Shown: positions 48,373 through 60,071 of the stretch, in pieces | Numbering within the stretch: position 1 is the stretch's first letter | Layout: each line of letters opens with the position of its first letter | Assembly (NCBI RefSeq): GCF_023213175.1 | Contig: NZ_CP093312.1 | Span: forward strand, 1,860,001-1,924,000 | Length of the DNA stretch: 64,000 nt | Reading direction: 5' to 3' | From: Sulfurovum sp. XGS-02 | Lineage (GTDB): Bacteria > Campylobacterota > Campylobacteria > Campylobacterales > Sulfurovaceae | The notes under the pieces: generated by a model | What the model was told of the DNA's origin: nothing | The model's database searches: none | Seen by the model: the letters and a program-made list of their open reading frames with translations, nothing else | Position numbers and translations under genes: made by a program

Positions 48373-48959
48373 TCTTCACTCTTTATATAGAGGTAATTCC
48401 GTTGATTTTTTTGTACTATATCATATCTTAGCTGATGTTGTACATCTTCTATCTCATCAAATACACGTGACCCTTTGTAAAAAAGATATTCTGTCTCTGA
48501 ATTGCTGACCTTGGAGGTCAGATCTAAAAGCAGTTTTGTGTTTGTCACAGCGCGTGAACTGATGAGATCAAACGCATCATGCTCCACGGTCTCAACCCTC
48601 TTTGCTTCTACAGTAACATTGTAAAGTTCCAAGTCTATAGCTGCATACTTTAAAAAAGAGACACGTTTTTTAAGTGGCTCGGCAAGTACCACCTTGGTAT
48701 CAGGAAGTGCTATGGCAAGTACCAATCCTGGAAACCCTGCACCTGTGCCTACATCTAACAGTGTTTTTGGTTTTTTTATAAAAGTCAAAGGGTACAGTGA
48801 ATCCACGATATTCACATAGATCGCATCTACACTCTTAGCCCCCGTAAGGTTGTGGATCTGGTTCCACTCATGCAAAAGCGAAGCAAAACGCTCCAGCTTT
48901 ACGATGATCTCACTTGACAGTAGTATCCCTTCTTTATCTAAGTGTTGCGACAGATTCAA
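48369..48959 (-). CDS. rsmG: 16S rRNA (guanine-N7) methyltransferase RsmG
   Basis: Methylates G527 of 16S rRNA. 196 residues with the SAM motif [17 protein letters not shown], the family segment [12 protein letters not shown], and ISSRAVTN. Complete length. It overlaps the PqqD-like gene upstream by four bases and the PP0621-like gene downstream by four. Confidence 0.95.
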
Positions 48960-49234
48960 TTCTCTTTTACCTCTACCAACCCACTCTCAACCAACTTTTC
49001 TACAAAATCAGAAAGATCTCTCTTCAATAACTCTTCTTCCACATCGTACTGTTCTAACAGTGCATTAAACACCTCTTGCAAAGTTCCATACTCCTGCATA
49101 GCCTGCCAGATAGCTGTACCCACTTCATCAAGCCCGAAGTAGTTTTCACTCTCCATATCCAGAAGTACCATTTCACCATCGACTTTTTGTGCGAAAACCG
49201 TCTCTGCAAATGTCACTTTTTGATTGAGGTTCAT
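48956..49234 (-). CDS. PqqD-family RiPP recognition protein, probable lasso B1
   Basis: 92 residues with the PqqD/RRE pattern: [27 protein letters not shown], here visible as [17 protein letters not shown], a middle helix, and a C-terminal winged helix ending [14 protein letters not shown] proteins bind the leader of RiPP precursors (via the YxxPxL motif in lasso peptides) and hand it to the B2 protease. The rest of the lasso cluster (51-58 kb) lacks a B1, so this one is the best candidate. No pqq genes are present. It shares an operon with rsmG, which is odd for a B1 and leaves a housekeeping alternative open. Confidence 0.75.
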
Positions 49235-49473: not shown

Positions 49474-49558
49474 ATTATTTTGTTGTGCCAAACTTGTTGT
49501 GAAGCAAGGACGGAAAGCCATGGGTCTTACACTAATAAGATTGCCAGGTTGCCAAATA
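49474..49558 (+). ncRNA. GEMM-I (cyclic di-GMP-I type) riboswitch aptamer, copy 1 of tandem
   Basis: Core pattern GCCAAAC, a 6-bp P2 stem CUUGUU/AGCAAG closed by a GUGA tetraloop, then GGACGGAAAGCC, a P3 stem starting GGGUCUUA, and a closing CCAGGUUGCC. Order and spacing match GEMM-I aptamers (GCAAACC, GNRA-capped P2, GGACGCAAAGCC, GGUUACC). AT-rich flanks can form P1. Differences from Vibrio Vc2: the base aligned with G20 is C and the base aligned with C45 is G. Confidence 0.82.
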
Positions 49559-49621
49559 CTCATCTATGTATGCCCTCTTACTTCTCCATTAGTTTATCTA
49601 TCAAATTTTATTTAATTCAAA

Positions 49622-49709
49622 ATTATTTTGTTGTGCCAAACTTGCTGTGAAGCAAGGACGGAAAGCCATGGGTCTTACACTGTAAAGATCGCCAGGTTGC
49701 CTAAATAAT
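49622..49709 (+). ncRNA. GEMM-I (cyclic di-GMP-I type) riboswitch aptamer, copy 2 of tandem
   Basis: Near-identical to copy 1, 148 bases further on. P2 is CUUGCU/AGCAAG with GUGA; the U-to-C change relative to copy 1 restores a G-C pair. Flanks ATTATTT and AAATAAT give a perfect 7-bp P1. The 3' arm of P1 (49703-49709) is also the left arm of the following hairpin, so aptamer closure and that hairpin are mutually exclusive. Confidence 0.82.
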
Positions 49710-49896: not shown

Positions 49897-51039
49897 ATGC
49901 AAAAAAACAAACTCTTTACCCTCTATGCAATCCTCTTGTCAATGTTGACTTTTAGCTCAGCTGTATTTGCATCACCTGCCGATAAAGCGCCACGTAAGAT
50001 TGTCGTATTTCAAAAGGGATTTTCAGACATGGCAGCACAAATAGCTTTGATGAAAAAAAACGGTGCTATACCGATTAAACCGCTAAAGATCATCAACGGT
50101 ATGGCCATTTACCTTCCAGCACAGGCACAAAGTGCACTTGAAGAACATTTAGGTGCTGAAATAGTACGTATTGATGAAGATATCATAGTGCATGGAACCG
50201 CTCCTGGCGGTGGAGAGCAGCCACTGCAAGATCTTCCATGGGGCGTCGACAGGATTGAAGCAGATATTGCCTGGGGAGATTCCAACGGTACCATGGTCAA
50301 TGTTGCCATACTCGATACTGGGGCCAATCTTGATCATTTGGACCTGATCGACAATATCAAAGGGAACTATAATGCCCTCAGCTCAAGAAAAAGTGCTGAA
50401 GATGACCATGGACACGGAACCCACGTCACTGGTATCATCGGTGCAGTGAATAACACTATAGGTGTTGTTGGTGTAGGGCCGCAGATAAATCTCTACCCTG
50501 TGAAAGTACTGGATCGTAAAAACGAGGGATTCCTTTCTGATATTGTTGACGGATTACAATGGTGCATCAACAATGGCATGCAAGTGATCAATATGAGCTT
50601 TGGCTCTGATGTTACAAACCAATCATATCACGATGCATTCATCGCTGTCCATAATGCCGGCATAGTACAAGTTGCAGCTGCCGGAAATACCGGTGGGGCC
50701 ATTCTCTACCCAGCCAAATATCCTGAAACGATCGCTGTATCATCCGTCGACCTAGCAGATCAGCTGGCTGCAAGTTCAGCAAGAGGTGCAGAGATCGATC
50801 TGGCGGCTCCCGGTGTAGGGATCAACTCAACCGCTATCGACGGATTGTATACAACCATGAGCGGAACCAGTATGGCAGCGCCTCATGTCACGGGGACAGT
50901 TGCACTGCTACTTGCTACAAATGGTACACTGACGCCAACTGAAGTCAAGACCAAACTAAAAAATACAGCGGAAGACTTAGGTTTACCTGCTGTCGAACAG
51001 GGAGCCGGTCTGGTTCGTGCCGATCTTGCTATCCAATAG
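49897..51039 (+). CDS. Secreted subtilisin-family serine protease (S8)
   Basis: 380 residues: signal peptide (about 1-26, ending AVFAS), an I9-type propeptide (about 30-100), then the S8 catalytic domain. The triad is complete: Asp140 in VAILDTGANL, His173 in HGHGTHVTG, Ser325 in SGTSMAAPHV, plus the oxyanion Asn264 in AAGNTGG. No C-terminal anchor or secretion domain follows. A strong ribosome site (AGGAG) precedes the ATG, and two riboswitch aptamers lie 190-420 bases upstream. It sits between the B1 gene and the lasso operon. It could mature or degrade exported peptide, but that is inference. Confidence 0.9.
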   Translation: MQKNKLFTLYAILLSMLTFSSAVFASPADKAPRKIVVFQKGFSDMAAQIALMKKNGAIPIKPLKIINGMAIYLPAQAQSALEEHLGAEIVRIDEDIIVHGTAPGGGEQPLQDLPWGVDRIEADIAWGDSNGTMVNVAILDTGANLDHLDLIDNIKGNYNALSSRKSAEDDHGHGTHVTGIIGAVNNTIGVVGVGPQINLYPVKVLDRKNEGFLSDIVDGLQWCINNGMQVINMSFGSDVTNQSYHDAFIAVHNAGIVQVAAAGNTGGAILYPAKYPETIAVSSVDLADQLAASSARGAEIDLAAPGVGINSTAIDGLYTTMSGTSMAAPHVTGTVALLLATNGTLTPTEVKTKLKNTAEDLGLPAVEQGAGLVRADLAIQ

Positions 51040-51112: not shown

Positions 51113-51271
51113 CTATGAAGCTTGTCCTCCGGTTTTTCCTGATCCATCGGGATGCCCATTGTTTTCATTAAACTGGGTTATTCCACCCAATGTTTTATTT
51201 ACTTCTAATTTGTTTATTGTAGGCTTATTCCATTTTTTGTGAAATCTGTTGGTCTCTAATTTTTTTAACAC
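51113..51271 (-). CDS. Lasso peptide precursor A2 (GTG start)
   Basis: 52 residues read from the DNA. Leader of 28 residues starts MLKKLETNRFHKKW and holds WNKPTINKLEVNKTL, the [YW]xxPx[LI]xxLxVxxT pattern seen in paeninodin-type leaders, with Thr at position -2. The 24-residue core starts GGITQFNE and ends SGKTGGQAS. Gly1 and Glu8 would give an 8-residue macrolactam ring. The start is GTG 51271 with AAAGG eight bases upstream; it overlaps the stop of cyclase C2, so translation is coupled. The core ends in Ser, like precursor A1. Cleavage and ring size are inferred from family rules. Confidence 0.8.
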   Translation of the reverse strand: MLKKLETNRFHKKWNKPTINKLEVNKTLGGITQFNENNGHPDGSGKTGGQAS

Positions 51272-53157
51272 TTTTTATACCTTTTGCATGCCTCTATAGC
51301 TAATATTAAATTTGTAATTGTTGTAATCATACCATAATTAGATTTAGACACACTCTCTTTACAGGAGCCCATGTCAATATCACGAAAAATCGAATCTAAC
51401 TTAAAATATTTATTTTCTTGGTCTGCCATCGTATAGGATTTCATCCATTTAATCTGAGCTTTCTGAGATATTACCATATATTTTTCTACTCTTTTAGGCT
51501 CATATTTTGTGTTTGACCAAATAATTTCTTTCGGCAACAATCCTTCGATTGCTCGTCTAAATAAAAATCGGTTTTTACCTTCTTGGCGAAAAATTTCTTC
51601 TGGTATACCTAGCGCAAATTCAACGATCCGTTTATCAAGCAGTGGATAACGATATTCTATTCTATCTGATACTCCTGATACATTCCACGACTCAACTCTG
51701 GTTTGAATTAAACCATCATTAAGTGCATTCAACATAGTATTGCGTACTCCAAAAGACGGTAACAACTTATCGTTAGAGCTGAGACCTTTAATTAATGTTT
51801 TCATAGACGGTTTAATATAATTTGATACCTTATTAAAGCTGCAGTAGGTTCCACTGTGTATACAGTAAAGCCAATCAGGGACAGAAGGTAGTATCACTTC
51901 CCTATAAAACCTTTTAATAAAACCCAAAATTGGATATCTTGATCTAAATCCTTCTAAACGCAGTGCTCTAAATGCTCTTTTAAATTCTCCTTTCCAAAAG
52001 AATCCTGCAATATACCCATAGCTGCTATTTGAGAGGAATTCGTCACCACCAGTTCCAGATAATATTACCCTAATATTTTGTTTGTTTGCATATTTCTGTA
52101 TTTGATGTTCATACCAAAAAGCTATGCTGTCTCCCTGTGTTATATCTATGGTTTTGTACAATGCAAAAATATCTTCTTCTGACAGATCAATAGCTTGATG
52201 TTCGATATTCTCAAGTGACGCAATCTTCTTCGAGTTTCCCCATTCAAAATAGTCTATGTCAGCATCTTTATCCAAAACAGGTGTCCAATTGAACCCAGTT
52301 AATCTATCACCTCTTTCATGCAATTTTCGTGATGCCAATACAGCTATTGAAGAAGAATCAATACCTCCGCTCAGATGAGAGCCAATGGCGTAAACAGAAC
52401 GTATACGGGCATTGACTGCCTCTTCCAATAGCTCTCTTGCATGCTTGATGTACTCATCCAAACTATCGTAACGGATTTTAGGGCATTCCTCTGCTCTCCA
52501 ATAGATATTTTGCTGCTTTTTATCTATCCTTATCGTAATACTTGTTGCAGCATGCAACTTGTATATATTCTCATAGAAGGTCATATCCAAATCTGACAAT
52601 AAAGTATGCTTCAGGTAATATGCCACTGCATCATCATTCAATACCTTTGCAATACCGACATGTGACAAAATACCTTTAATTTCATTTGAAAAGACAAACT
52701 TCTCATCATCCATATAATAATAAAATGGTTTTATACCTATATGATCCCGAGCACAAAACATCTGCTGTTTTTTTTCATCCCATATCGCAAAAGCGAAATC
52801 ACCCAACAGATGCTTTGGACACGCTTCACCCCATTTCTCATAGGCAGAAAGAATAAAATCACTGTCTGTTATCTGATCTATTGGCCTATCTAATATTTCA
52901 AGCTTCTCGGCTAACTCTTCACGGTTGTCCAGCCTTGCATCCATTGTAATGACATGGGAATTTTTTCGATTTGGTAGGTGTTCCAGTTTTGATTCGGGTG
53001 TATTCCATAGCATAGTATGTCCAAGTGCGACAGGACCTTCTGACCAAACTCCATGATCATCAGGTTTCCAGTAACACATAGCCTCAAGCATGGTCTCAAC
53101 GATCTTTTTATCTACAGGTTTTCCATCTCGATTAAAAATACCAAAAATACCACTCAC
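51265..53157 (-). CDS. Lasso peptide cyclase C2 (asparagine synthetase-like)
   Basis: 630 residues with the two-domain AsnB fold. Lasso cyclases activate the ring Asp/Glu side chain as an AMP ester and close it onto the core N-terminus. The ATP-pyrophosphatase loop LSGGIDSSSIA is intact near residue 265, and FCARDHIGIKPFYY marks the N-terminal domain. The N-terminus is SGIFGIF, so the glutaminase nucleophile Cys of MCGIFGI is Ser and free glutamine hydrolysis should be lost. GTG 53157 has AGGG nine bases upstream and gives M-S-G-I-F-G; ATG 53163 is closer to AGGG and aligns less well. Precursor A2 overlaps its stop. Confidence 0.88.
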   Translation of the reverse strand: MSGIFGIFNRDGKPVDKKIVETMLEAMCYWKPDDHGVWSEGPVALGHTMLWNTPESKLEHLPNRKNSHVITMDARLDNREELAEKLEILDRPIDQITDSDFILSAYEKWGEACPKHLLGDFAFAIWDEKKQQMFCARDHIGIKPFYYYMDDEKFVFSNEIKGILSHVGIAKVLNDDAVAYYLKHTLLSDLDMTFYENIYKLHAATSITIRIDKKQQNIYWRAEECPKIRYDSLDEYIKHARELLEEAVNARIRSVYAIGSHLSGGIDSSSIAVLASRKLHERGDRLTGFNWTPVLDKDADIDYFEWGNSKKIASLENIEHQAIDLSEEDIFALYKTIDITQGDSIAFWYEHQIQKYANKQNIRVILSGTGGDEFLSNSSYGYIAGFFWKGEFKRAFRALRLEGFRSRYPILGFIKRFYREVILPSVPDWLYCIHSGTYCSFNKVSNYIKPSMKTLIKGLSSNDKLLPSFGVRNTMLNALNDGLIQTRVESWNVSGVSDRIEYRYPLLDKRIVEFALGIPEEIFRQEGKNRFLFRRAIEGLLPKEIIWSNTKYEPKRVEKYMVISQKAQIKWMKSYTMADQENKYFKLDSIFRDIDMGSCKESVSKSNYGMITTITNLILAIEACKRYKKC

Positions 53158-53183
53158 ATACACCCTTTATCATTTTGCTATCA

Positions 53184-54827
53184 TCAATGTTTCAATGATG
53201 CTTCTTCAAAATTATACCGATACCAATATTCCATATTAATGATTGTCCAAAGAATGACAATATATTTAATCGTTTTATCTTCATACTCTTTTCTGTACTG
53301 ATCAATAAGCGACTGTTCTATCAGCCCAAGTTTTACAATGTACGGCTCCTCAAGCAAAGCACCAAGATCAATGGCATCAATCTGCTGCATGATGAGTTCG
53401 GAAAATTCTGCCTTGTCTTTTCTATCTCTTATTTTATCAGGTAAGATCCCATCCATTGCTTTTCTTAAGATCCATTTGATGGTCCTTTGTTTATATTTCA
53501 TCTCAGGTGGTAAAGAGAGTGCAAACTCTACCAGTTCAAGATCAAAATAAGGATGCCGGTACTCTATACCGAAATAATCCTCTGCAGCGTGAAAAAAATT
53601 CCCATCCATGATCATTGAATAAGCTGTTGAAGTTATCATATCCAAATCATTTTTATATATAGGGTTTGTGATTCTTAAACTTTGACTAAGATCTTTTATA
53701 TCATTATCTTCTAGAAAAAATGGATTTGTATCTTTTCTTCCAAGTAATATTTTTATAAAACCAATAAGCTTTTTACCTAATAAAGGTCTCATGATATAAG
53801 CTTTAATCATTCCCCATGGCTTAGAATAAACCTTTAGCTCTTTATAGAGTGTAAAAAATTTAAAGCGTCTTAGCAGATCATATAGAACATACCGAGTTCC
53901 AGTAAAAAGATGATCTCCACCTTGTCCTGTAATGACGATTTTTTTTCCATCTTGTTTCATTTTTTTAAGCATCGGAAGCGCCATTGCAAATGTCAAAGTT
54001 ATAGGCCAATTTGGGCTCATAGTATATAAGCGATCTAGTGAATATGCTTGCAAATAGTCTAGTTCACCTGTAGATATCTTCTGGTGATGCAAAGGGTATT
54101 TTTTCAAAATGCTATCAACATAAATCCCTTCATCGCATTTTAAACCTTTAAAATCCATAGAATAACTGTCTATCTTCGATGGAATGATGCTTTGACCGAG
54201 TAAAGAAACAACCGATGAAGAATCTAAACCGCCACTTACTTCAAAAGCAGTCTCTTCTAAATTATCAACACGGTTATTTACCGCTTTTGAAAAAAGTTCA
54301 GTAAGTTTTTTTGCAGCTTCATCTTCAGTAAGAGAATAATCGATCTTTATCTTTTCTGGATACCAATAACGTTCTATCTGCTCTTTACCATTTTCGATGA
54401 TCATAGAATGACCTGGAGGAAGACGGTATACACCTTCATACATAGTAGCAGTATAGTCAACAGTACGATGATAAAGCATCGTTCTCATAGATTTTAAATT
54501 CGGTTTTTTAAGTACATGAGGAAAATTGAGAAGTTCATCTATATTTGAAGAAAACTTATACTCTCCATTTATCTTAGTAAAATAAAGTGATTTGACCCCC
54601 AAGGGATCACGGGCACAAAAATAGTGCTTTTTCTCAGAATCATATATAACAACTGCAAACTCGCCATCAAGGTTAGAGGTAAGAAGATTCCCCCATTTTT
54701 TATAGGCTAAACAAAGAAGTTTATCATCCAATGACTCAAATTGTTCCAAACTTAATTTATTTTTGAGAAACTCTGTATTAAACAGTTTTGTTTGGTTAAA
54801 CAAAACTCTAAAAGTGGATGAAGACAT
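53184..54827 (-). CDS. Lasso peptide cyclase C1 (asparagine synthetase-like, short N-terminal domain)
   Basis: 547 residues. The synthetase loop VSGGLDSSSVVSLLG (about 198-203) is intact, and GDHLFTGTRY and YFGIEYRHPYFD mark the catalytic domain. Compared with C2 it lacks about the first 70 residues, including the whole glutaminase nucleophile segment; the remaining N-terminal domain is recognisable by FCARDPLGVKSLYF. The ATG is eight bases after precursor A1. Together with C2 this makes two cyclases, each next to its own precursor gene. Confidence 0.87.
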   Translation of the reverse strand: MSSSTFRVLFNQTKLFNTEFLKNKLSLEQFESLDDKLLCLAYKKWGNLLTSNLDGEFAVVIYDSEKKHYFCARDPLGVKSLYFTKINGEYKFSSNIDELLNFPHVLKKPNLKSMRTMLYHRTVDYTATMYEGVYRLPPGHSMIIENGKEQIERYWYPEKIKIDYSLTEDEAAKKLTELFSKAVNNRVDNLEETAFEVSGGLDSSSVVSLLGQSIIPSKIDSYSMDFKGLKCDEGIYVDSILKKYPLHHQKISTGELDYLQAYSLDRLYTMSPNWPITLTFAMALPMLKKMKQDGKKIVITGQGGDHLFTGTRYVLYDLLRRFKFFTLYKELKVYSKPWGMIKAYIMRPLLGKKLIGFIKILLGRKDTNPFFLEDNDIKDLSQSLRITNPIYKNDLDMITSTAYSMIMDGNFFHAAEDYFGIEYRHPYFDLELVEFALSLPPEMKYKQRTIKWILRKAMDGILPDKIRDRKDKAEFSELIMQQIDAIDLGALLEEPYIVKLGLIEQSLIDQYRKEYEDKTIKYIVILWTIINMEYWYRYNFEEASLKH

Positions 54828-54994: not shown

Positions 54995-55083
54995 ATCTAT
55001 CTCCCTAAAATATTCGTAACACTCAATCTATATAATACTTATAAAATTATCTCTTATCCTAAACTATATGAATTTGAAAAAAG

Positions 55084-55114
55084 ATTATACTCTGTTATAT
55101 TTAAATAATAACAA
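55084..55114 (-). promoter_or_regulatory. Possible internal promoter upstream of precursor A1
   Basis: On the minus strand TATAAT (55089-55084), with TTGTTA about 19 bases upstream, lies between the kinase stop and the A1 start, giving a leader of about 80 bases. It could give extra A1 transcript independent of the upstream operon. Confidence 0.4.
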
Positions 55115-55124
55115 TTGCTATCTT

Positions 55125-56009
55125 TTAATTTATTTCTTTATTATGTTTACAGATCATATCATGCACTTCTCCAAGCCGTTCCATATCCCATGGTACTTGC
55201 ACCTGGAAAACTTTTATACTGTTTAACATGGATGAAAGGTACTTCAAACGTTTTGGTCTTAGATATGAGAACATATAGAGATAGTTAGGAAGAAGAGCAT
55301 CAAACTTTGCAAAGCCTTTTATCTCTTCTATGGTGATATCAGCATCGCCTTTCACACCTTCAAGTGCATAAAAAGCATGAATAGGTTTAAAAAGTCTTGT
55401 AAACTTCTCAACACGATACCCCAACTCCTCAAATTTCCTGTAAGGTCTATGATACGGATGTGATCCTACAGCCATAAATTTGCCATTCTCTATAAAGGTT
55501 GGAACTTTGTCATCTGATATGAGTGTATGTCCCTGATTTATGAAGTAGTCGGTCATCGTCGATTTACCACCCATGGATGGTGCGATAAAGAAGATAGATT
55601 TCCCCTCTACTTCCACTCCTCCGGCATGAAGAAAATCATACATATTTTCCAATGTCATATATAGTGGTAAAAGAAGGTGAATCAACCAAAAGCTCAACAT
55701 ATCTGCATCACCTTTTTCATCCAGTCTATAGTAGATCGTACGTTCTCCGCCTCTCCAATAAAAACGAACTATATCCTTCACTTCATAACACCAAGGCTGT
55801 CCTGCCTCGCTACCATCAAATTCACGATCACTGTAAAGGTAAACTTTTCGTCCATGCGCCAAGTATAACGGAAAACCGCAAGTGATTGTACGTTTCAGTG
55901 TATCAGGTACTCTTGAAGAGAGTTCTACTTCATATCTTGAAGCTGTCTCATGAGATAGTTCTAAAGGAAAGTCGATATCACTTTTTATCTTGGTACCGTA
56001 GACTATCAT
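55125..56009 (-). CDS. HPr kinase-like protein of the lasso cluster (tailoring kinase)
   Basis: 294 residues with the HprK C-terminal fold: DFLHAGGVEVEGKSIFFIA, a P-loop PSMGGKST (about 144-151) and GHTLISDDKVP. In paeninodin-type clusters such proteins phosphorylate the C-terminal Ser of the lasso precursor; both precursors here end Ala-Ser. The ATG 56009 overlaps the B2 stop as ATGA and is preceded by GGGGA; a start at 56021 is less likely. The activity is inferred from family and context; the peptide substrate remains to be shown. Confidence 0.8.
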   Translation of the reverse strand: MIVYGTKIKSDIDFPLELSHETASRYEVELSSRVPDTLKRTITCGFPLYLAHGRKVYLYSDREFDGSEAGQPWCYEVKDIVRFYWRGGERTIYYRLDEKGDADMLSFWLIHLLLPLYMTLENMYDFLHAGGVEVEGKSIFFIAPSMGGKSTMTDYFINQGHTLISDDKVPTFIENGKFMAVGSHPYHRPYRKFEELGYRVEKFTRLFKPIHAFYALEGVKGDADITIEEIKGFAKFDALLPNYLYMFSYLRPKRLKYLSSMLNSIKVFQVQVPWDMERLGEVHDMICKHNKEIN

Positions 56010-56464
56010 TCTTTTCCCCAACCAAAAGTCGAAATCACCGTAAACTCTTCATGCCCTTTAGCACCAGTAAGTATGACATCCCCACACTGAGACCAGGCAT
56101 GTGCTTTCATCGTCTCTTCCACATTTTTGTCTTTTGCTACTCCAAGATAAAAAAAACCCGGGATAGCACGTTTTTGCAGCATCTTTTGAGCAGCAAGTGA
56201 CTGTACCAGGCAAGCACTCTCCCAAGGAGTATGTGCCGCTGCCCTGGTAACTGCATGCCCTACTAAAGTGGCAGTCTGCATCTCTTTATCATCCAGGGAA
56301 ATCACCTTAACGTCATTTGGAAAATGTTCCAAAGAACGTGTCAGACGCTTAAAAGAGATGGTCAAAATCGCAGCACGCATGATACCAAGTATCATATAGG
56401 CTTCCAGGAACAGTTTCTTCTCTTCGCTTGTTAATTTAATAAATTGTTGTATTCTTCGCAGCAT
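56006..56464 (-). CDS. Lasso peptide leader peptidase B2 (transglutaminase-like)
   Basis: 152 residues of the lasso B2 family, a papain/transglutaminase-type protease that cuts the leader from the core. Catalytic residues are visible: Cys85 in WESACLVQSLAAQ, His122 in KAHAWSQCGD, and Asp129. It overlaps the ABC gene upstream by 29 bases and the kinase gene downstream by four, so the three are translated as a unit. It would act with the B1 protein at 48.9-49.2 kb. Confidence 0.9.
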   Translation of the reverse strand: MLRRIQQFIKLTSEEKKLFLEAYMILGIMRAAILTISFKRLTRSLEHFPNDVKVISLDDKEMQTATLVGHAVTRAAAHTPWESACLVQSLAAQKMLQKRAIPGFFYLGVAKDKNVEETMKAHAWSQCGDVILTGAKGHEEFTVISTFGWGKE

Positions 56465-58220
56465 CTACACACTCAATTATATATCCTTTTTCAGAAAGTT
56501 CTTCATAACTTCCCTCTGCCTTTACATACCCATCATCAATCAAATAGATATGATCTGCTTGCTTGATCGTCGTAGTCCTATGTGCAATGATAATTGTCGT
56601 ACGGTCTTTAAGAAACGATTCCAGTGTTTCATACAGATAATACTCTGTTTCATTATCCAGAGCGGATGTGGCTTCATCAAAGATAACGATTTTTGGATCT
56701 GAGAGTATCAATCTGGCTATGGCGAGTCTCTGACGCTGTCCCCCAGAGAGACGGATACCATTTTTACCGATATGTGTTTCCAGACCATTTTCCAGTTTAG
56801 AGACAAACTCTTCAAGTTGTGCAGCTTTCAGTGCTTCGTAGATCTCAGTATCACTCTTATCTTTTGAAAGCGTAAGATTCATACGGATCGTATCGTTAAA
56901 AAAGAGCGCCTCTTGTAACATCAGTGCCACATTCTCACGTACAACAGGTAAACCTATCTGTTCTATAGGAGTACCTCCATACAGTATCTCCCCAGCATGT
57001 GAAGGGTAAAACCCTACCATGATCTGGGCAATGGTTGTTTTACCACTTCCGCTTGGACCAATAAGTGCGATCTTCTCTCCCTCTTTCGCTTTTAGATTTA
57101 TATTGTGCAGTACCTCTTTGCCATTGCCATAGGCAAAACATATCTCTTTTAATTCCACAGAAGTCGTTTTACTGCTCTCAAAAGGATTAGACAGGTGCGG
57201 GTAATGCGGTTCGTGTGAAAGAGTGAGTAATGTATTGATACGTTCAAGTGCCGGCTTAATACTTTGATAGGAGATGACCAATCCCATCAATTGTTGCATA
57301 GGAGAAACAAGGGTAGAGAGGTAAAAAAGAAAAGCTATCATCATTCCAATGGTTAAGTCTGAATATGCTACGGCAGCAATACCCAGTGCTCGAAAGATAT
57401 CTACTACTGTATTGGTCAAAAGTGTAGATGAAGTTTGTGCAACAGAAGCTTTGTATCCATAATCAATTGATGCCGACTCAATCTCTTTTGCACGTCCCTG
57501 AAGAATACCAAAGAAACTTCTCTCCTGGTTGCTTACACGCACTTGTATAAAAAGTTCTAAGGTTTCATTGAGGAGTTCATGATACATTTCATAGGCTTTA
57601 TATTGACGGCGAAGCAGTTCTCCTGTCTTACGTCCCAAAAGTCTAGAAAAAGCTAAGAAAAAAGGATTGAGTAAAAAAACAAACAATGCCAAGACCCAGT
57701 TCATCCAAAGCATGATCACAGCGATACCCAGCAGCATAAGAGAAGCACTCAAGAGTGTGGTAACTATCTGTCCGGCAAAACCACTGACACTCTCTACATC
57801 TTGCACACTCTTTGAAGCAATGCTCCCTGACTTCAGTGACTCATATTCTGAAAGTGAGACGCGTTCTAAATGATGTAAGATTCGATGTCGCAGTAGATAA
57901 CTGATCTTTTGTGTAATCTTGGTTGCGTAGAAAGTTTTTTTATTATTAAAAAAGAATGCCAGAGATCTCAGTGCAAGTACCACTACAAGTATCACAGAAA
58001 TATATAACCAAACTTCAGAATTATCAAAAATACTGGAAATGAACTCCGTAGTCTTCCCCGAATGTTCTAGTAGGACCTCGTCTATCAAAAGAGGCATCAG
58101 CATTGGAACAGGGAGTAACAGAAATGTTGCAGCGATTCCATATATGCTGGTACGCCAAAAATCACCTGTTTGCGCCTTGATCTGGCCATGGAGTGTTTTA
58201 AATGTATACTTACCTGTCAT
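56436..58220 (-). CDS. ABC exporter of the lasso peptides (D protein)
   Basis: 594-residue half-transporter: six membrane helices (about 20-310) fused to a nucleotide-binding domain with Walker A GPSGSGKTT (388-396), signature LSGGQRQRLAIAR (from 491), Walker B VIFDEATSALD (Glu516) and the H-loop His547. There is no N-terminal C39 peptidase domain, which fits leader removal by B2. It is the first gene of the operon; its ribosome site (TAGG, five to six bases before the ATG) lies in a hairpin that competes with the upstream riboswitch. Confidence 0.92.
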   Translation of the reverse strand: MTGKYTFKTLHGQIKAQTGDFWRTSIYGIAATFLLLPVPMLMPLLIDEVLLEHSGKTTEFISSIFDNSEVWLYISVILVVVLALRSLAFFFNNKKTFYATKITQKISYLLRHRILHHLERVSLSEYESLKSGSIASKSVQDVESVSGFAGQIVTTLLSASLMLLGIAVIMLWMNWVLALFVFLLNPFFLAFSRLLGRKTGELLRRQYKAYEMYHELLNETLELFIQVRVSNQERSFFGILQGRAKEIESASIDYGYKASVAQTSSTLLTNTVVDIFRALGIAAVAYSDLTIGMMIAFLFYLSTLVSPMQQLMGLVISYQSIKPALERINTLLTLSHEPHYPHLSNPFESSKTTSVELKEICFAYGNGKEVLHNINLKAKEGEKIALIGPSGSGKTTIAQIMVGFYPSHAGEILYGGTPIEQIGLPVVRENVALMLQEALFFNDTIRMNLTLSKDKSDTEIYEALKAAQLEEFVSKLENGLETHIGKNGIRLSGGQRQRLAIARLILSDPKIVIFDEATSALDNETEYYLYETLESFLKDRTTIIIAHRTTTIKQADHIYLIDDGYVKAEGSYEELSEKGYIIECVDAAKNTTIY

Positions 58221-58224
58221 TTTA

Positions 58225-58271
58225 GCCTATGTTTAATTCTTTTAGTTTGTATATTTTACATTAAATTAGGC
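58225..58271 (-). promoter_or_regulatory. Ribosome-site-masking hairpin of the lasso operon leader
   Basis: On the minus strand GCCTAATTTAAT (58271-58260) can pair with ATTAAACATAGGC (58237-58225) in an 11-bp stem with a one/two-base internal loop. The right arm contains the AGG ribosome site of the exporter gene. The left arm begins in the closing GGUUGCC of the riboswitch. Ligand-bound aptamer and masking hairpin are therefore mutually exclusive, predicting translation ON with ligand. Confidence 0.65.
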
Positions 58272-58360
58272 AACCTGGCAGTCTTCTTCTTGTCTAAAAT
58301 TATAGCATCAAAGACCCATGGCTTTCTGACCCTGCCTCACGACAGGTGTAGCATTTATCT
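58263..58360 (-). ncRNA. GEMM-I type riboswitch aptamer upstream of the lasso operon
   Basis: RNA core: GCUACA, a 6-bp P2 stem CCUGUC/GGCAGG with a GUGA tetraloop, then GUCAGAAAGCC, a P3 stem beginning AUGGGUCUU, and closing CCAGGUUGCC. The overall plan equals the two aptamers at 49.5-49.7 kb, but P2 has different bases with pairing kept and P3 is longer (covariation). The bases aligned with Vc2 G20 and C45 are C and G, as in the other two. The exporter ATG is 43 bases beyond its 3' end. Confidence 0.78.
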
Positions 58361-58426
58361 TATTAAGGTGTTGTGAGTATATCATAAAATTTTCAAAATA
58401 TATGACACTTGAGATAAAGATAGAGG

Positions 58427-59008
58427 TTAAAGCAGATGCCCCATCTGATCTTTTTTGACTTGAAGATATCCTTCATTGTGAGGATTAGGCGTGATCTGGA
58501 TAGGTAGACGTTCTACGATCTCTATGTCACCCAAGCTTTCTATTTTTTTAGGGTTATTGGTAAGAAGTTTTAGTTTTTTTATACCAAAATGATTTAAAAT
58601 GAACTCAACCACTTCATAGGTACGTTCATCTGCCTTAAAGCCAAGCTGATGGTTTGCCTCTATAGTATTAAATCCTGCATCTTGAAGTGCATAGGCATTG
58701 ACCTTGTTGAGCAGTCCTATATTCCGTCCCTCTTGACGATGGTAAATGATCATCCCGCCCTCTTTTGCAATGAGTTCGAGTGCATAATGCAGTTGTTCCC
58801 CGCAGTCGCATTTGACTGAACCGAATGCATCACCGGTCAGACATTCAGAGTGCACACGTACGATCGGCTCATCCGATAAGTTGTCTGTGAAAATGGCCAA
58901 ATGCTCTTTACCTTCACCGTTTTTTATCATCTCTTTGAAGGCCTGTATCTTAAACGTACCGTATTTGGTTGGTAACGTAGCGATTTGTGATATATCTATA
59001 GTAATCAT
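58427..59008 (-). CDS. ribA: GTP cyclohydrolase II RibA
   Basis: First step of riboflavin synthesis: GTP to diaminohydroxyphosphoribosylaminopyrimidine. About 193 residues with the zinc cysteines in SECLTGDAFGSVKCDCGEQL and the arginine loop YHRQEGRNIGL, then LLTNNPKKIESL. Start at ATG 59008 (MITIDISQIATL) matches the family; the frame stays open further upstream but that part is not protein-like. It is a single-domain enzyme, not fused to RibB. Confidence 0.95.
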   Translation of the reverse strand: MITIDISQIATLPTKYGTFKIQAFKEMIKNGEGKEHLAIFTDNLSDEPIVRVHSECLTGDAFGSVKCDCGEQLHYALELIAKEGGMIIYHRQEGRNIGLLNKVNAYALQDAGFNTIEANHQLGFKADERTYEVVEFILNHFGIKKLKLLTNNPKKIESLGDIEIVERLPIQITPNPHNEGYLQVKKDQMGHLL

Positions 59009-59093
59009 AATGAGATTATACTTTAAGAATGAACAATTAATAATTAATAATCCATAATTAGTGTAAAATACTTCAAAAGATATCGTAAGGTTA

Positions 59094-60071
59094 ATGAATA
59101 TGTTCGCACGTTTTAGAAGAAAAAGAATCAATCCGGTCCTAAGAGACCTCCTCCAGGAAACACACCTTAATGTCAATGACTTCATCTACCCGCTCTTTGC
59201 AAAAAGCGGTACAGGCATTAAAGAAGAAGTAGGCTCTATGCCCGGTGTGTTCCAAATGAGCATCGATGAGATCGTGAAGGAGTGTGATGAACTCAAAAAA
59301 CTTGGTATCTACGCCATCATCCTATTTGGTATCCCGGACACCAAGGACTCTGTAGGGTCTGATGCACTGTGTGAGCATGGGATCATTGCTCAAACGGTAC
59401 GTGAAATGAAGGCTGCACACCCCGATATGTTCGTAGTGACCGATCTCTGTTTCTGCGAATATACTGACCATGGGCACTGTGGTGTACTTGACCCGGTACT
59501 CCATACGGTTGACAATGACATTACACTTGACAACCTGGCAGCACAAGCCGTTGTGCATGCCAAAGCAGGTGCAGATATGATAGCCCCTTCAGGCATGATG
59601 GACGGGATGATCACTGCCATACGTAACGGACTGGATGAAGCGGGATTTGTCAACCTTCCTGTTATGTCATACTCTACCAAGTTTGCTTCGGCCTATTACG
59701 GGCCTTTCCGTGATGTGGCTGAATCCAGTCCGAGTTTTGGTGACAGAAGATCTTACCAGATGAACCCGGCAAACAGAAATGAAGCGATCCAGGAGAGTAT
59801 AGAAGATGAAAAAGAGGGTGCAGACATCCTGATGGTCAAACCTGCACTTTCCTATCTGGATGTGGTAAGAGATGTAAAGAACAATACGTCACTGCCACTG
59901 GCTGTTTACAATGTCTCAGGTGAATACTCCATGCTCAAAATGGCAGCCAAAGCGGGTGTCATAGACTATGAGAAAGTGATGATGGAGACGCTTCTGTCAT
60001 TTAAACGTGCCGGTGCGGATATCATTATCACCTATCATGCAAAAGAGGCAGCGATTCTTTTAAACAAATAG
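59094..60071 (+). CDS. hemB: Delta-aminolevulinic acid dehydratase HemB
   Basis: Condenses two aminolevulinate molecules to porphobilinogen in haem synthesis. About 325 residues: VVTDLCFCEYTDHGHCGVL (zinc cysteines and metal loop), APSGMMDGMI (first Schiff-base Lys region follows), MSYSTKFASAYYGPFRDVA (Lys), DRRSYQMNPAN and MVKPALSYLD (catalytic Lys). The ATG at 59100 has better spacing to TAAGG than 59094; the difference is two residues. hemN follows at 61.1 kb. Confidence 0.96.
   Translation: MNMFARFRRKRINPVLRDLLQETHLNVNDFIYPLFAKSGTGIKEEVGSMPGVFQMSIDEIVKECDELKKLGIYAIILFGIPDTKDSVGSDALCEHGIIAQTVREMKAAHPDMFVVTDLCFCEYTDHGHCGVLDPVLHTVDNDITLDNLAAQAVVHAKAGADMIAPSGMMDGMITAIRNGLDEAGFVNLPVMSYSTKFASAYYGPFRDVAESSPSFGDRRSYQMNPANRNEAIQESIEDEKEGADILMVKPALSYLDVVRDVKNNTSLPLAVYNVSGEYSMLKMAAKAGVIDYEKVMMETLLSFKRAGADIIITYHAKEAAILLNK

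Follow-up and report, generated by a model that had tools for sequence, protein, structure and literature searches.

The ABC exporter gene that opens a lasso peptide operon in Sulfurovum sp. XGS-02 is directly preceded by an aptamer of the c-di-GMP-I (GEMM-I) class, and we consider it probable (roughly 70%) that this element is a class I c-di-GMP riboswitch that switches translation of the exporter ON. Lasso peptides are small, knotted and often antimicrobial. In the proposed mechanism, the ligand-free aptamer would hide the Shine–Dalgarno sequence (SD) of the exporter gene by folding its 3′ end, the ligand-pairing cytosine included, onto it. When c-di-GMP is bound, this cytosine and the closing strand would be taken into the aptamer, the hairpin would be blocked and ribosomes could start. 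Overlaps link the exporter, B2 and kinase-like genes, so that translational coupling would probably carry the effect to all three. The precursor and cyclase genes may be part of the same transcript or be served by a separate promoter.

The analysis was performed on a window of 64,000 nt, which is the whole stretch of DNA analysed (positions 1,860,001–1,924,000 of contig NZ_CP093312.1). The source genome, designated G000 here, consists of one contig of 2.19 Mb; other genomes of the genus are likewise given G numbers where they have to be told apart. The features discussed are listed in Table 1. In the search of the whole window, the aptamer matched RF01051 at 55.6 bits (gathering score, 35; E-value 3.7e-8), and the match runs end to end, over model positions 1–87 of 87. 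All 18 checked model pairs, belonging to P2, the two-bp P1a and the P3 helices, are formed, and the P2 loop is a GUGA tetraloop (GNRA-like). The score of the same element against c-di-GMP-I-GGC (RF03167) was 56 bits, just below the cut-off of 59. These results confirmed the presence of the GEMM-I aptamer that had been proposed in front of the exporter gene from the sequence alone.

Table 1. Features of the lasso operon and its surroundings, in positions of the 64,000-nt window
Feature	Position	Strand	Basis
ribA, upstream neighbour of the aptamer	58427–59185	−	
Promoter-like −10 TATGAT	58381–58386	−	Promoter scan; upstream sequences of relatives
c-di-GMP-I (GEMM-I) aptamer	58266–58362	−	Rfam RF01051
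G equivalent to Vc2 G20 (ligand contact)	58352	−	RF01051 alignment position 11
C equivalent to Vc2 C92 (Watson–Crick partner of the ligand)	58270	−	RF01051 alignment position 83
Anti-SD arm GCCUAAUUUAAU: aptamer end, ligand-pairing C, P1 3′ strand	58260–58271	−	Folds
SD arm AUUAAACAUAGGC, holding the SD AGG	58225–58237	−	Folds; sequence
Lasso ABC exporter; opens the operon	56436–58220	−	Pfam ABC_membrane and ABC_tran
Lasso B2 leader peptidase	56006–56464	−	NCBIfam NF033537 lasso_biosyn_B2 and Transglut_core3
HprK-like kinase-related protein	55125–56021	−	Weak HprK_rel_A match; kept in relatives
Lasso precursor, 52 aa	54836–54994	−	Sequence motif; same-operon homologs in G138, G083, G139
Cyclase-like C1 (asparagine-synthetase-like)	53184–54827	−	Pfam Asn_synthase
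Cyclase-like C2 (second asparagine-synthetase-like)	51265–53163	−	Pfam
Tandem c-di-GMP-I aptamer pair	49477–49704	+	Rfam; upstream of secreted subtilase
Lasso B1 / PqqD-like leader-recognition protein	48956–49234	−	PF05402; ORF

The lasso operon and the predicted reach of its control

Along the minus strand, a 64-nt gap separates ribA from the c-di-GMP-I aptamer, and a 45-nt linker leads from there to the ABC exporter gene, after which come the genes of the lasso B2 peptidase, the HprK-like protein, the 52-aa precursor and the two asparagine-synthetase-like proteins. Orthologs of the exporter adjoin lasso genes in approximately 20 genomes. The B2 protein passed the curated cut-off of NF033537 (96.5 bits against 33), and the match of the kinase-like protein to HprK_rel_A was weak (20.5 bits against a cut-off of 200). 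The precursor was recognised by motif only, with the leader YRQPQLKEIG...TK, the core GSGSEAGLD and an acid within core positions 7–9; its leader (...YRQPQLKEIGKVYDLTK) precedes the predicted core GSGSEAGLDFSFPFLAS, for which a ring between G1 and D9 is predicted. The top match of both asparagine-synthetase-like proteins was the lasso cyclase model NF033535, with 238.6 bits for C1 and 435.8 bits for C2, both below the cut-off of 525. Two such cyclase-like genes are found in one lasso operon (51265–54827, minus strand); several relatives show one only.

The B1 gene, the sole copy in the genome (PF05402, 70.8 bits against a cut-off of 23.4, at 48974–49174), is located apart from the operon, about 2 kb past C2 and beyond the opposite-strand gene of a secreted subtilase. 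The tandem aptamers lie approximately 190 nt 5′ of this subtilase gene (49897–51039), between C2 and B1. It should be noted that the same arrangement of tandem aptamers and subtilase beside the lasso operon is also found in G137 and G138, the two nearest relatives.

The promoter-like TATGAT upstream of the aptamer did not score above chance by itself; the same TATGATATACTCA is present upstream of the aptamer in both G137 and G138, and we infer that this promoter may be used. A start inside the linker was rejected, as the −10-like TAAAAT at 58258–58253 is at chance level and is missing from the linkers of G137 and G138.

The exporter and B2 genes overlap by 29 nt and the B2 and kinase-like genes by 16 nt, which makes translational coupling of the three genes plausible. 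Meanwhile, the kinase-like gene is separated from the precursor gene by 130 nt (54995–55124, minus strand), and this gap contains AGUAUAAU (TATAAT-like), followed by a U-run, in G000 as well as in G138. The precursor may therefore escape the control by the aptamer, and the search of the G000 gap revealed no aptamer of its own up to an Rfam E-value of 5. It is quite possible, though we would not put it at even odds, that the riboswitch governs export and maturation only, that is, the exporter, B2 and kinase-like genes, with the precursor and cyclases expressed from a promoter in the gap. This would refine the ON-switch reading, not contradict it, and c-di-GMP would then gate the release of the lasso peptide or self-protection, not its synthesis. 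The genes, however, are co-directional and close to each other, and B2, which is needed for maturation, would remain under control.

That the control of the precursor can be separated is indicated by G139 and G080, in which the precursors have aptamers of their own. In G139, a second aptamer (c-di-GMP-I-GGC; L066, 8458–8538, minus strand) lies directly 5′ of a lasso-like precursor, and its tail forms a hairpin around the precursor SD, with a helix around GCUAUAU/AUAUAGU. In G080, a c-di-GMP-I-GGC aptamer (L111, 1099–1173, plus strand) is found 23 nt before the precursor (1197 onward), which has a GTG start and ends ...WVSPNLSTININQTK / core GGFSNGNE.... This aptamer and the precursor lie past the cyclase gene and on the other strand, the precursor gene being convergent with the cyclase gene; the tail segment of the G080 precursor leader, folded alone, gave no tail–SD pairing. 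We argue for control of the exporter, B2 and kinase-like genes only, since the precursor may be expressed from a separate promoter. The original prediction that the lasso cluster is controlled thus stands for the link between aptamer and operon, which recurs in relatives, but is called into question for the precursor by the gap with its own TATAAT.

Competing folds at the exporter ribosome site

The unconstrained fold of the leader contains a hairpin in which GCCUAAUUUAAU pairs with AUUAAACAUAGGC over 11 bp (5 + 6) interrupted by one 1 × 2 internal loop, with an energy of −5.7 kcal/mol when taken alone. The SD AGG (58228–58226), 5 nt 5′ of the exporter ATG (58220), is within this pairing, and the ligand-pairing C also belongs to the anti-SD helix. 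As the hairpin uses the ligand-pairing C, ligand and hairpin are predicted to be mutually exclusive. The leader was also folded with the aptamer locked, that is, with the aptamer pairs enforced and the two ligand-contact bases left free. The predicted mean accessibility of the SD increased from 0.07 in the unconstrained fold to 0.74 in the locked model, and the start codon became more accessible as well (0.06 to 0.64). The blocking of GGUUGC alone, the stretch that the bound aptamer would occupy, was sufficient for the loss of the hairpin (from −6.9 to −0.5 kcal/mol). The scan for intrinsic terminators found no terminator-like site on the aptamer strand, which rules against transcription termination as the mode of action. 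Taken together, the freed SD and the missing terminator-like site predict that translation is ON in the presence of ligand. The 11-bp hairpin and the exclusive folds of the original prediction were thus reproduced, and its claim that ligand turns translation on agrees with the predicted logic of the leader.

In the minimum fold, the P2 strand ACCUGUCGU (58339–58347) also pairs with the start region AUGACAGGU (58212–58220), to which it is complementary over 9 nt; both are on the minus strand. This is likely a coincidence, as the start codons are the same in relatives without the aptamer.

By itself, the G000 hairpin is only modestly better than chance. Of 5000 shuffles that kept the GCC and AGGC ends, 225 reached the same stability, as did 129 of 5000 full-segment shuffles, and the SD–tail pairing probability of G000 was matched in 41 of 300 shuffles of linker and spacer. 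The number of such shuffles reaching the SD–tail pairing, again of 300, was 1 for G137, 16 for G068, 19 for G083 and 46 for G077, and in G139 it was 19 for the small ORF and 1 for the precursor. The SD–tail pairing probability was 0.63–1.00 in all eight lasso-linked platforms scored, a count that overstates their independence since these platforms are related, and 0.00–0.07 in nine other riboswitch platforms of G000, several of them with equally short linkers. The recurrence in relatives, more than the single hairpin of G000, is what convinces, and it appears to be the strongest support for the predicted switch.

Orthologs of the exporter are present in approximately 22 genomes of the genus, and an orthologous contig is found in Sulfurovum sp. 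AR (NZ_AJLE01000006), a strain that has the orthologous aptamer too. The aptamer is located between ribA and the exporter operon in seven genomes, belonging to RF01051 in G000, G137, G138, G068 and G083 and to RF03167 in G139 and G077, where a small ORF, ending at the exporter start, lies between aptamer and exporter. The same ribA–exporter junction, with a gap of approximately 13–53 nt and without the aptamer, is seen in G115, G128 and G065. The exporters beside the retained aptamers are 69–90% identical. The SD-pairing helices are GCCUA/UAGGC in G000, UAACUUA/UAGGUUA in G137 and G138, GUUGCC/GGCAAC in G068, UUGCC/GGCAA in G083 and CCAGA/UCUGG in G139 and G077. The paired letters thus differ among the lasso platforms, the pairing of SD and tail is kept, and the ligand-pairing C is included in most of them. 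Covariation between tail and SD (GCCUA/UAGGC against ACCUA/UAGGU in G137 and G138) is not claimed, as the best fold of the latter two is the slid helix UAACUUA/UAGGUUA. In G083, locking of the aptamer raises the SD accessibility from 0.25 to 0.51 only, which weighs against the ON switch.

A working c-di-GMP riboswitch of the opposite, OFF direction, or one that acts mainly at the level of transcription (RNA stability or Rho access) and in which the SD hairpin matters little, is unlikely in our view. Such a reading is favoured by the near-chance SD pairing of G000 taken alone and by G137 and G138, in which the aptamer locked without the P1 helix leaves the SD paired (accessibility of 0.04) and the P1 strand must also be blocked to free it. 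It would also agree with Vc2 of Vibrio cholerae, the best-studied translational GEMM-I switch, which is OFF (PMC9262584). In spite of this, the tail pairs with the SD in eight of eight lasso platforms, mostly with inclusion of the ligand-pairing C, the SD is freed on locking in several of them, and the strand lacks a terminator-like site, all of which argues for the translational ON switch.

The lasso B2 gene is present in 24 of the 78 genomes of the genus; most of the lasso clusters in Sulfurovum therefore have no aptamer at the exporter. Outside the genus, only four B2 matches were obtained for the same order among the genomes sampled, with no aptamer near any of them. The exporter tree is poorly resolved (support of 26/75 for one change), and the gains of the aptamer could not be counted on it. 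In G117, tandem c-di-GMP-I-GGC aptamers (L070, 7523–7690, plus strand) come after the kinase-like gene; they precede the gene of a secreted glycine-rich protein and no recognised lasso gene.

Ligand and genomic context of the aptamer

At the position of Vc2 G20, a G favours c-di-GMP and an A would favour cGAMP, and Vc2 C92 pairs with the ligand in Watson–Crick fashion. The Sulfurovum aptamer has G and C at the equivalent positions, the C92 equivalence being assigned by comparison with elements having a clear P1 and by the folds. The two bases point to c-di-GMP, rather than 3′,3′-cGAMP, as the probable ligand. The letters of the junction deviate from the consensus and from Vc2, with UACAC in place of CAAAC and GUC in place of GAC; the consensus letters add to the RF01051 score, but the cut-off does not require them. 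Like junction letters (the same, or GCC) are found in G137, G138, G068, G083, L020 and L021. As they are common to orthologous elements and to two other aptamers of G000, a subtype looks likelier than decay. Some GEMM-I aptamers do sense cGAMP, and the unusual junction would leave room for 3′,3′-cGAMP or another cyclic dinucleotide; we nevertheless hold this to be improbable, because the selectivity position has G and not A, C is found at the C92 position, and the genome contains many GGDEF and EAL domains (18 and 13, respectively).

There are 21 c-di-GMP-I aptamers in the 2.19 Mb of G000, several of them in tandem, and they precede genes of PAS-type sensors, lipoproteins, an outer-membrane-type protein, a gene overlapping a GGDEF/EAL region and others. 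The numbers are similar in G137 (21) and G138 (18), and such aptamers are present in 72 of the 78 genomes of the genus. The c-di-GMP regulon of G000 is large for so small a genome. In spite of this genus-wide expansion and the unusual junction letters of the subtype, we give very little credence to the aptamer being a decayed bystander with no regulatory effect here, since all 18 checked pairs are intact, the same junction is kept beside exporters of 69–90% identity and in two Rfam subtypes, and the SD-pairing feature is retained though the paired letters differ.

Neither flagellin nor FlhA was found in the searches of the G000 genome, which does encode several type II/IV secretion ATPases. 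A flagellar reading of the motile/sessile switch, to which lasso peptide production would be linked in the original prediction, is thereby not supported, and "motile/sessile" can mean at most surface attachment or pilus-based behaviour here. As a whole, the original observation was confirmed and its interpretation was partly supported.

Known systems and meaning for Sulfurovum

The Sulfurovum element resembles Vc2 and RF01051 in its aptamer architecture, the GNRA-type P2 loop, the ligand-contact G and C and the control of the ribosome site; unlike Vc2, it is predicted to be ON and its target is a lasso operon. The pilM riboswitch of Geobacter metallireducens is of the ON type, and there the competing hairpin ties up the ligand-pairing C, outcompeting the ligand (PMC9262584). 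The ligand-pairing C sits in the competing hairpin in Sulfurovum as well, whereas pilM combines a transcription terminator with cGAMP and the Sulfurovum element an SD hairpin with G at the selectivity position. The lasso-gene aptamers of G139, G077 and G080 belong to RF03167; in contrast, the G000 element passes the cut-off of RF01051 and not that of RF03167.

Known lasso clusters (A, B1, B2, C, D) share with the Sulfurovum genes B2, the PqqD-like B1, the cyclase-like proteins, the ABC exporter and a precursor carrying a leader motif and a ring acid, and the HprK-like gene is as in kinase-bearing clusters. The Sulfurovum operon differs from them in having the exporter first, two cyclase-like genes, B1 beyond the subtilase and apparent riboswitch control. 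No paper linking lasso peptides, c-di-GMP and riboswitches was found among open-licence papers, so an earlier report elsewhere is possible; the titles and abstracts of the open-licence papers that name both lasso peptides and riboswitches draw no connection between them. The riboswitch class and the cluster type are both already known; the apparent novelty lies in the target of the aptamer and in the platform predicted for it.

The triggers of lasso clusters are poorly known, and many biosynthetic clusters are silent in culture. Sulfurovum is a major sulfur-oxidising bacterium of vents and seeps. If the proposed switch is true, an RNA that reads c-di-GMP would provide a direct, testable trigger for a lasso cluster, and the GEMM-I switches would gain a translational ON platform. 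An antimicrobial-type peptide would then join the surface-attached programme of Sulfurovum.
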